From: Coriobacteriia bacterium
Lineage (GTDB): Bacteria; Actinomycetota; Coriobacteriia; Coriobacteriales; UBA8131
DNA length: 51,005 nt
Reading direction: 5' to 3'
Assembly: GCA_009784945.1 (NCBI GenBank)
Contig: WQXH01000011.1
Span: forward strand, 1 to 51,005
The first letter of the stretch is position 1, and the number at the start of each line of letters is the position of its first letter. A program made the position numbers and the translations under genes. The notes below the pieces were generated by a model. That model searched no databases and had not been told where the DNA came from. It saw only the letters and a list, made by a program, of their open reading frames with translations. This document shows, piece by piece, positions 3,040 through 27,342 of this stretch.

Positions 3040-3498
3040 TTAAAGAGCCTTTGAAGAGCATCCGTCGCTGGTTGCGTGCCACTTATCCATAAACTCACAC
3101 CAACGATTAAGTGTTTCATCGCTAATGGCATGCTCCATAGTACACGCCTCCTCTTGAGCTTTGGCTGACTCGACTCCCAAGACTTCAATAAGAAACCGGC
3201 TTAAGGTCTCATGCCGGCTTTGCACCTTGCGCGCATAAAAAAGCCCTTCTTGTGTAAGGGAGATATCTCCATAGTGTGGCTGTTTAACAAGCCCGGCGTT
3301 CTTTAGGTTGTTAATAGCTTTATTGACGCTGGCCTTTGATACATCCATCTGGCTGGCAAGGTCAACAGAACGTATCGCCTTAGACGCCCCACCAAGCAGA
3401 AATATCGCCTCAAGATAGTCCTCGCTCGAAGGAGAGAGCTTTTCTGGCTGTTCTATCCTGGCTGGCTTATCTTGCTGTTCTGACCCTTCTTTATACAT
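3040..3498 (-). CDS. DtxR/MntR-type metal-dependent regulator
   Basis: A winged-helix metal sensor. SSEDYLEAIF opens the DNA-binding domain with a ligand-type Asp and Glu, followed by the helix-turn-helix (SVDLASQMDVSKASVNKAINNL) and a wing ending in GDISLTQEG. The dimerisation domain carries the remaining ligand residues: His in SRHETL and the CTMEH motif. The Cys-x-x-Glu-His pattern resembles the iron sensors DtxR/IdeR more than MntR, which has Glu-x-x-Glu-His. At about 152 residues it lacks the C-terminal SH3-like domain of DtxR. The frame extends to 3549, but GGTGAT ahead of the ATG at 3498 suits that start better. It is last in the long operon, behind the MFS gene. Confidence 0.8.
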   Translation of the reverse strand: MYKEGSEQQDKPARIEQPEKLSPSSEDYLEAIFLLGGASKAIRSVDLASQMDVSKASVNKAINNLKNAGLVKQPHYGDISLTQEGLFYARKVQSRHETLSRFLIEVLGVESAKAQEEACTMEHAISDETLNRWCEFMDKWHATSDGCSSKAL

Positions 3499-3532
3499 AA
3501 ATATCACCATTCCATTACCACAAGAAACACCG

Positions 3533-4813
3533 TTAACTGAGCTCTTCATCGATAGACGCTAAATCTGCCTTATAGAGTTTGCCAAAGACCAAGGTTCCCA
3601 CAAATGCCACCGCTGTAAAGAAAGCTAAGATACCATAAATGAGCGATCCGTTGTCTCCGGCCGGAGAGCCCAAAAAAGCGGTAATGATTATATTGATAGT
3701 TGCTGCCACAGCAATGCAGCAGCTGAAGATGCCCAGATTCATAGCAAAGTTCTGGGAGCCGAATCTCTGGCGCGAAAATGAAGCGCCCATTACCGGCACA
3801 GAGCCATAGGCAAGAGCCACTAAAATGCCTGCAACAATGTAGAGCGGACCGATCTTAAAGGCAAGAGAGAGCGAAAGGCCTACCATGCAAAGAAAGCACA
3901 GGACACAGGCCGCAAGCATGACAGGAAGCAGCCCCACTTTGTCAAAGCTTACCCCGCTTACTATGCGACTCAGGCCATTCATGCTGGCTACCAAGCCAAC
4001 CATGAGGGCGCCAAAGCCTACAAATATCTTCTCATCGAGCTCGAGCACGGCGGCACCCTGAGCTGCAGTGCCAATGAGTGCAAGACCGGAAGCAACTACA
4101 AAAACCGACCAAATGCTAAACACCCAAAAGACCCTTGTTTTGAGGATGAACTTTTGTTGTGTGAACGAGGTCTTGGTTTGAGCAGAAGCACGTTCTACTC
4201 CAAGCCTTGACCCTATGTCTTCAGGAGCCGGTTTAACCACAAATGCCAGGATAAACATAACCGTAAAGGTGAGCATGGCAATGAGCATGAAGACTATGCC
4301 CCAGTCTAAAATGCCAAAAAGGACATTGGCTAAAGACCCAAACACCAGGCTGGAAATACCAAATCCCATCATCATGACGCCAGAACTAAAGCCTACCCTG
4401 TCGGGAAACCAAGTGTTGACCAAGGTGATTATGGCGTTAAAGCCTATTCCGCAGCCTGACCCAACCAAGATGCCATAAAAGATAAAGAGCGCCCAGATGC
4501 TCAGACCGGCAAACAGAGCCGTTAACGAAAAGCCAATAGCCAATAACACAGCTGCCACGACTATTGATGCCTTAGCAGAGAACTTCTTGATTATCTGTGC
4601 ACCGAGTAAGGCGGCAAAGCAAAAGGAGAACATTGATACTTGAAACACCTGCGACAAGTAAGGCCCGTAACTGCCAAAGGTTTTTCCAATGGGAACCGCA
4701 AAGATTGACCAAGCGTAAATCAGGCCGAGCACCAGGAGGGTGGCCGTGGCAAATACCAGATTCAGCATTCTCTTTCGTTTTATCATCTTGCTCGTCAATT
4801 CAGCAGAACTCAT
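3533..4813 (-). CDS. MFS transporter, oxalate/formate antiporter (OFA)-like
   Basis: A 426-residue, twelve-segment major facilitator. The first helix carries the OFA-family signature YAWSIFAVPI near residues 33-42, and the segment around residue 113 reads GILVGSGCGIGFNAI, also typical. The substrate is probably an organic anion or monocarboxylate, but it cannot be fixed. The ATG is preceded by AAGGAG at ideal spacing. It sits 32 bases after steA and just ahead of the DtxR-type regulator, so both may be co-transcribed. Nothing in the sequence shows that the regulator controls it. Confidence 0.82.
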   Translation of the reverse strand: MSSAELTSKMIKRKRMLNLVFATATLLVLGLIYAWSIFAVPIGKTFGSYGPYLSQVFQVSMFSFCFAALLGAQIIKKFSAKASIVVAAVLLAIGFSLTALFAGLSIWALFIFYGILVGSGCGIGFNAIITLVNTWFPDRVGFSSGVMMMGFGISSLVFGSLANVLFGILDWGIVFMLIAMLTFTVMFILAFVVKPAPEDIGSRLGVERASAQTKTSFTQQKFILKTRVFWVFSIWSVFVVASGLALIGTAAQGAAVLELDEKIFVGFGALMVGLVASMNGLSRIVSGVSFDKVGLLPVMLAACVLCFLCMVGLSLSLAFKIGPLYIVAGILVALAYGSVPVMGASFSRQRFGSQNFAMNLGIFSCCIAVAATINIIITAFLGSPAGDNGSLIYGILAFFTAVAFVGTLVFGKLYKADLASIDEELS

Positions 4814-25803: not shown

Positions 25804-27096
25804 CTATGGCTTCCTGTCATTTCTGCGTTGCTCTGTTCGGTATGCCTCCCACCCTCGCTCCCCAGGAGTGTAGAAGCAACCGGTCTCAAGCCCCTCGGGC
25901 AAATACTGTTGATCCACGTATCCAGAGGGATTACTGTGCGGGTAATGATAGGCACCATAGTTTTCTGAGCCAGGACGATGCCTGTCGCGCAAATGATTGG
26001 GCACCTGCCTCAGTGGCCCTTTGGAAACCTCGGCCAAAGCTGCGTCTATGGCGATATATGAAGCGTTAGACTTGGGTGCCAGAGCCATGTACACTGCTGC
26101 CTGCGAAAGATTGATGCGGCACTCAGGCATACCAATCCTCTCAACCGCCGCAAAGGCTGCATGGGCTACGAGCAGAGCCTGTGGATCAGCATTGCCCACG
26201 TCTTCCGAAGCAAAGATCATGATACGTCGAGCGATGAACTTGGGGTCTTCCCCACCATCGAGCATGCGGGCAAGCCAGTAGGCAACAGCATCGGGCTCCG
26301 AACCACGCATGCTCTTAATAAAGGCACTGACGACGTCGTAGTGCATGTCGCCCTTTTTATCGTAAGGAAGAGTCGTGCGCGGTGCGGCTTCCATAACGCA
26401 TGAGAGCTTAATGCTTTGTTCTGGCGTAACATTGACCGCAAGCTCCAGAGTGGTAAGCGCACTACGTGCATCCCCACCTGCCATGGTTACGATGGCATCC
26501 AAGGCATCATCACAAAGCTCATAGGCTCCAGCCAACCCACGTTCATCAGCAAGTGCTCGCTTGATTACTGTTGCAACCGCCTCATTGCTCAATACGAGAA
26601 ACTCGATAACTCTCGAACGACTGATGAGCGCCGAGTTAACCTCAAAGGCCGGGTTTTCGGTGGTGGCTCCAATGAGAATAACGACTCTGTCTTCCACTGC
26701 GTGCAAAAGCGCGTCTTGCTGCGATCGAGAAAAGCGGTGGATCTCATCCACAAATAGGATGGTTTTGAGGTGGTAGTGGGTCAGGCGCTGTGCAGCCTCA
26801 TCAATAACCCTGCGTAGATCGCTCACACCGCCACTGATGGCACTGACCTCGGTAAAGTGAGCCTTGGTTTGCGCAGCAATGATGCGCGCCAAGGTGGTCT
26901 TGCCCGTGCCAGCCGGGCCAAAGAGGATGATAGACGAAAGACTGTCGGTTTCTATGGCTCCCTTAAGCCAGCTGCCCTGCCCTAAAATTTCTTCTTGCCC
27001 TACCAACTCGTCAAGATTTCGAGGTCTCATGCGCACGGCCAAAGGGGCTACGCTGCCCAAGGCCTCTCGCTCAGTTTTAGAAAAGATGGTTTCCAT
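25804..27096 (-). CDS. rarA: Replication-associated recombination protein RarA (MgsA)
   Basis: An AAA+ clamp-loader-like ATPase acting at stalled forks. PLAVRMRPRNLDELVGQEEILG opens the domain, Walker A is GPAGTGKT (60-67), and Walker B with its sensor is LFVDEIHRFSRSQQDALL. The C-terminal MgsA domain ends HYPHSNPSGYVDQQYLPEGL. The frame opens at 27120, but the ATG at 27096 gives the proper N-terminus and lies exactly six bases after a TATACT box, implying a leaderless message. A 6S-like RNA gene lies directly upstream on the same strand. Confidence 0.95.
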   Translation of the reverse strand: METIFSKTEREALGSVAPLAVRMRPRNLDELVGQEEILGQGSWLKGAIETDSLSSIILFGPAGTGKTTLARIIAAQTKAHFTEVSAISGGVSDLRRVIDEAAQRLTHYHLKTILFVDEIHRFSRSQQDALLHAVEDRVVILIGATTENPAFEVNSALISRSRVIEFLVLSNEAVATVIKRALADERGLAGAYELCDDALDAIVTMAGGDARSALTTLELAVNVTPEQSIKLSCVMEAAPRTTLPYDKKGDMHYDVVSAFIKSMRGSEPDAVAYWLARMLDGGEDPKFIARRIMIFASEDVGNADPQALLVAHAAFAAVERIGMPECRINLSQAAVYMALAPKSNASYIAIDAALAEVSKGPLRQVPNHLRDRHRPGSENYGAYHYPHSNPSGYVDQQYLPEGLETGCFYTPGERGWEAYRTEQRRNDRKP

Positions 27097-27108
27097 GCTC
27101 TCAGTATA
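27096..27108 (-). promoter_or_regulatory. rarA promoter, apparently leaderless
   Basis: TATACT (27103-27108, minus strand), then six bases, then the ATG at 27096. Transcription would start on the A of the ATG. There is no Shine-Dalgarno sequence in between. Confidence 0.6.
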
Positions 27109-27139
27109 GCTGCCTAGCACTCTGTAAGCTTTTAATTAA

Positions 27140-27307
27140 GTACCTCATTCTTGGTCCGACGGGATGAACCCACCTATCAAAAGGTGGGTACCCGCACCAC
27201 TGCTTCCAACTTCCGCTACCATGTAGGGGGATACCTGTCTACAGCAGTATCTGGGTTCCCTATTCATTCATGTCGGTCCATCGATCAAGCCGGCCAAGAA
27301 TGAGGCA
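27140..27307 (-). ncRNA. ssrS: Probable 6S RNA
   Basis: A transcript of about 168 bases closed by a perfect 12-bp stem (27294-27305 with 27143-27154). Inside are a hairpin ACCCACC/GGTGGGT on the 3' side, an ACTGCT/AGCAGT stem and a GTAG/CTAC hairpin at the far end, leaving a wide unpaired middle as in 6S RNA. Its promoter (TTGAAA, 18 bases, TAGAAT) puts the first base at the foot of the closing stem. The position immediately upstream of rarA matches a neighbourhood known for 6S genes. The region has no open frame. The family assignment rests on structure and position, not on a covariance search. Confidence 0.62.
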
Positions 27308-27312
27308 ATTCA

Positions 27313-27342
27313 ATTCTAACGGAAACTAAATTGCTATTTCAA
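27313..27342 (-). promoter_or_regulatory. Promoter of the 6S-like RNA
   Basis: TTGAAA (-35, 27337-27342) and TAGAAT (-10, 27313-27318) with an 18-base spacer on the minus strand. This is the best sigma-A-type promoter in the window. Predicted start is near 27306, next to the base of the closing stem. Confidence 0.65.

Follow-up and report, generated by a model that had tools for sequence, protein, structure and literature searches.

A Covarying 6S RNA Gene With a Promoter of Its Own Upstream of rarA in a Coriobacteriales Bacterium

The window, a stretch of 51,005 nucleotides (contig WQXH01000011.1, assembly GCA_009784945.1), contains a conserved, covarying and non-coding structure of full-length 6S type, found in a single copy in almost all genomes of the class Coriobacteriia. 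6S RNA is a small RNA that imitates an open promoter and thereby traps RNA polymerase. With a probability of about 0.9, this locus is where the Coriobacteriales bacterium encodes its one 6S RNA, with a promoter of its own and with predicted holoenzyme binding and pRNA release. It is predicted from this structure that the RNA is transcribed, binds the holoenzyme, templates pRNA and then lets the enzyme go. The novelty is a class-wide member of the known 6S family, and the mechanism ascribed to it is ordinary.

Locus, Fold and Promoter

The gene and the elements that delimit it are the following:

27139 to 27306, minus strand: 6S RNA gene with a predicted transcript of about 168 nt, matched by Rfam over 27137-27310 and by the clade model R1 over 27139-27307
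27294 to 27305, minus strand: 5' arm of the closing stem P1, CCTCATTCTTGG; the aligned helix covaries
27143 to 27154, minus strand: 3' arm of the closing stem P1, CCAAGAATGAGG; the aligned helix covaries
27313 to 27342, minus strand: promoter, TTGAAA (27342-27337), 18-nt spacer and TAGAAT (27318-27313), kept in same-genus genomes

The two arms of P1 (27305-27294 with 27154-27143) pair perfectly over 12 bp on the minus strand. This is the longest perfect pairing between arms at least 100 nt apart, and 200 dinucleotide shuffles of the region reached a maximum of 9 nt, with 10-bp arms in 0/200. The minus-strand fold has a free energy of -74.3 kcal/mol (z = -5.0), and none of 200 shuffles was equally stable. 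The TTGAAA-18-TAGAAT promoter matches 10 of the 12 consensus positions, and its position predicts a transcription start close to G27306, at the base of the closing stem; in same-genus genomes it reads TTGAAT or TTGCAA, 18 nt and TAGAAT. The perfect stem, the promoter and the start at the stem foot, all part of the preliminary description of this DNA, were thereby borne out. Its coordinates for a 6S-like locus were also correct, and the strand can now be specified as minus.

Family Assignment and Coding Potential

At its own cut-offs, Rfam reports nothing at the locus. The best permissive match is 6S RNA (RF00013), which covers model positions 1-187 of 187 with 29.3 bits (E = 4.9e-4 for a search of 701 bases, 3.7e-4 genome-wide) and is the sole RF00013 match in the genome. 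Because this score lies below the gathering cut-off of 46.4, standard annotation misses this 6S gene. The same holds for most relatives: among 60 genomes of Coriobacteriales, mostly metagenome-assembled, 45 give an RF00013 match, generally one apiece, and only 2 have one above the cut-off. The close homologues that reach it are L001/L039 (48.1) and L040 (48.7).

Two open reading frames of 40 and 50 aa overlap the RNA, at 27145-27267 (minus) and 27151-27303 (plus), and could speak for a short coding gene, just as the stem could be put down to a chance inverted repeat. However, any one frame is open in at most 8 of 42 aligned relatives, and the lengths of these sequences vary by single bases, which means that the RNA is not coding. 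The stability of the fold, the strong covariation and the near-universal presence in the class also stand against both ideas, whose probability is practically negligible; the conservation data already refute them. The earlier view of the stretch as non-coding thus holds across the 42 relatives. Its assignment to 6S RNA is supported by this lack of a conserved frame, by a full-length covariance match, albeit below the gathering score, and by the link that a clade model makes to 6S RNAs above the cut-off.

Covariation and Distribution

The sequences of the 42 relatives form alignment A1, from which the clade covariance model R1 was built. In A1, 91.3% of cells are paired in the 6S-like structure, compared with 82.3% after shuffling, and sliding the partner strands lowers pairing to only 41-55%. 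Changes on both sides of a pair were found at 23 pairs (shuffled mean 14.8; 0/500 shuffles as high), distributed over P1 (8 pairs), helix 3 (3), the upper stems (11) and the nearly invariant P2 (1). The long interrupted hairpin, made up of closing stem, central bubble and upper stem, is therefore backed by compensatory changes. R1 scores 142-148 bits on the forward strand and 13-14 bits on the reverse, where the reverse is reported at all, and this difference settles the strand.

Among Coriobacteriia genomes of at least 90% completeness, R1 matches 292 of 298 genomes and 117 of 120 genera, in single copy except for one genome with two matches; as the model was trained only on Coriobacteriales, these class-wide matches indicate conservation, not function. 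A divergent 6S member of the source family, L165 (G017; 3399-3558, minus strand), scores 69 bits with R1 and has an altered bubble hairpin, CCCACGUUAAUUAAAAUGGGUUC.

In a sample of 296 Actinomycetota genomes, 98 had an RF00013 match at E up to 0.1; in 70 of them the match was above the cut-off, so the phylum does contain 6S RNA. Outside the class, all 18 R1 matches with E < 1e-4 fall on RF00013 loci above the cut-off. This overlap between the two models is the strongest argument that the RNA belongs to the 6S family. E. coli ssrS escapes R1 even with filters off (4.1 bits), and the link to the model 6S RNAs accordingly passes through intermediates.

Predicted pRNA Synthesis and Release

The central bubble contains the following elements:

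27275 to 27282, minus strand: 5' strand of P2, GAUGGACC, also the template for the predicted pRNA (A1 alignment, covariation analysis)
27163 to 27170, minus strand: 3' strand of P2, GGUUCAUC (A1 alignment, covariation analysis)
27168 to 27189, minus strand: 3' central-bubble hairpin, ACCCACCU(UUUGAU)AGGUGGGU, which shares 3 nt of its 3' arm with P2
27272 to 27286, letters of the plus strand: predicted pRNA 5'-GUCGGUCCAUCGAUC from the CCGAC site (by homology and the rules of PMC8414754)

The 5' bubble reads GGACCGAC-A, with GGACCGAC at 27279-27272. Starts of pRNA follow a rule of GG at pRNA positions 4/5 or 5/6 and an adenine immediately upstream (PMC8414754), and GGACCGAC, judged by its letters, fits this signature with CCGA, GG at positions 4/5 and an adenine just upstream. 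P2 (GAUGGACC with GGUUCAUC) and the hairpin (ACCCACCU with AGGUGGGU) share 27168-27170 and are mutually exclusive. Both are nearly invariant in A1, where 97.9% of cells are paired in P2 and 98.5% in the hairpin. In the source sequence the two states are 0.8 kcal/mol apart, with ensemble probabilities of 0.42 for P2 and 0.60 for the hairpin. When 8 nt at the pRNA site are masked, the hairpin probability climbs to 0.97, a purely thermodynamic value in which P2 is removed by construction.

In E. coli 6S RNA, the opening of P2 leads to an extended 3' bubble hairpin that drives enzyme release (PMC8876501), and by analogy the exclusion of P2 by the hairpin would be the same release switch here. The RNA would be transcribed from the TTGAAA-18-TAGAAT promoter, mimic an open promoter and bind the housekeeping sigma-RNA polymerase holoenzyme, which would then take the 5' central bubble as template, begin at the C of CCGAC and yield the pRNA GUCGGUCCAUCGAUC, so that the expected products begin with 5'-GUCGGUCC. 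Synthesis would unwind P2 and free GGUUCAUC, allowing the 8-bp 3' bubble hairpin to form, and this hairpin would let the enzyme go when NTPs rise.

These bubble elements also bear on a second identity, that of an Ms1-type RNA. Such RNAs, as in Mycobacterium and Streptomyces, attach to the core enzyme of RNA polymerase in the absence of sigma. According to PMC9130861, Ms1 RNAs occur widely in Actinobacteria and are related to 6S RNA in structure; they share with this locus the phylum and a 6S-related shape. Nevertheless, the Rfam scan up to E = 10 gives 6S and no Ms1 family, R1 joins the locus to 6S RNAs above the cut-off, and the RNA contains a pRNA start motif and a candidate release hairpin. 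An Ms1-type RNA is quite unlikely and was rejected.

The rarA Neighborhood

Two features lie directly downstream of the 6S RNA gene:

25804 to 27096, minus strand: rarA (MgsA), a separate transcription unit that commonly adjoins 6S in the clade; start probably ATG 27096
27103 to 27108, minus strand: -10-like TATACT of rarA, 6 nt before the ATG; the mRNA is predicted to be leaderless

The open reading frame of rarA extends over 25804-27120 on the minus strand (Pfam MgsA_C, 2e-62). Given the TATACT box 6 nt before the ATG at 27096, the GTG start at 27120 is predicted to be too early, and similar boxes precede rarA in several relatives. The preliminary description had also taken this neighborhood as fitting 6S RNA. 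The position directly downstream stands for this genome, but as a defining mark of the RNA it does not, since rarA is a frequent neighbor only and is divergent or unlinked in some families.

The arrangement could alternatively reflect a cis-acting leader of rarA, a riboswitch or attenuator cotranscribed with the gene and controlling it. The RNA precedes rarA by 40-50 nt in the same orientation, no intrinsic terminator was found 3' of it in the source genome, and the gene order is the same in many relatives of the source family, most of whose genomes have rarA downstream on the same strand. In family f2, however, 6S RNA and rarA are divergent, and several f5 and f10 genomes have no rarA within about 5 kb of 6S; this varied synteny argues strongly against a leader. 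Unlike in the source genome, the 6S RNA of most relatives is immediately followed by a terminator. The terminators of the relatives and the -10 box of rarA itself make the 6S RNA an independent gene, and its fold is that of 6S RNA end to end. A leader of rarA is very improbable; the constant same-strand position upstream of rarA that it implies is not found in several families, and it was rejected. As the source genome has no terminator after its 6S RNA, transcripts there may run on into rarA and then be processed at the 3' end.

In three close relatives (L115, L118 and L023), the gap between 6S and rarA contains long imperfect palindromes rich in GGGACGGGG/CCCCGTCCC, which resemble mobile repeats of REP type.

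Upstream Elements in Relatives

In other families of Coriobacteriales (f2, f5, f6 and f10), the 6S promoter combines GTCAAGACT with a TAnnnT -10 box 19-22 nt further downstream (L002, L003, L006, L007, L009-L011, L016, L018, L019, L024-L026, L028 and others). This combination is nearly confined to the 6S gene. The source genus is without GTCAAGACT and has a near-consensus -35 box in its place. A strict pattern, GTCAAGACTGGTAA with TAT, matched just two loci, and a looser pattern was used instead. This pattern, GTCAAGACT-N19-22-TAnnnT, has 50 matches in 60 near-complete genomes, compared with 16 in all for a backwards control pattern; at least 39 of the 50, tallied by hand from coordinates, lie within about 10 nt upstream of the R1 6S match. 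In 185 kb around 62 6S loci, GTCAAGAC occurs 31 times, 29 of them at the place of the 6S promoter. The core of GTCAAGACT, GTC-AA-GAC, forms an inverted repeat, as would suit a dimeric regulator; the element may be a dedicated regulator site.

In some genomes of the source family (L008, L013, L015, L020, L023 and L111), a different conserved element precedes the -35 region, namely GGTGAACGGT or a close variant of it.

Relation to Known 6S RNAs

With E. coli ssrS (RF00013) the RNA shares its length, the long interrupted hairpin with a central bubble, the CCGA start, GG at 4/5 and the competition between P2 and an extended 3' bubble hairpin, which has 9 bp in E. coli (PMC8876501) and 8 bp here. 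By contrast, the sequence is below the Rfam cut-off in nearly all Coriobacteriia members, their hairpin ACCCACCU:AGGUGGGU hardly varies, and the neighbor of ssrS is the folate gene fau (ygfA) instead of rarA. The rarA neighborhood is common to the Firmicutes 6S-1 RNAs (B. subtilis bsrA, lactic acid bacteria; PMC8414754), as is a 3' central-bubble hairpin predicted to be partly formed in the free RNA (PMC8876501). Nonetheless, GG is found at 4/5 here and at 5/6 there, the hairpin is longer here, and rarA is downstream, whereas it is upstream in lactic acid bacteria and reported in the opposite orientation in B. subtilis.

In the literature, 6S RNAs are described as widespread except in Actinobacteria (PMC9130861), where none has been identified apart from one Streptomyces candidate (PMC11077062). 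The main texts of both studies, the former a 2022 search for Ms1, leave Coriobacteriia unmentioned. A literature search combining 6S RNA with names of Coriobacteriia returned no report, although Wehner 2014 and Barrick 2005 may list some members. Judging from the matches described above, Coriobacteriia are an exception to the published absence.

Implications

A wider and tentative reading, somewhat less than probable, is that 6S RNA is universal in Coriobacteriia, that much of the order drives it from a near-exclusive GTCAAGACT promoter, and that, taken with the 6S matches in further non-model lineages of Actinomycetota, the absence described for the phylum is a trait of the Ms1-bearing model lineages. 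If this is true, a dedicated regulator or sigma contact would be reserved for 6S RNA. A single-copy and near-universal 6S RNA that lies mostly below the cut-off calls for a correction of annotation, for which a covariance model is ready, and a class-wide 6S RNA offers a point for dating the change from 6S to Ms1. The class also includes culturable gut bacteria, in which RNA polymerase binding and pRNA synthesis are directly testable.
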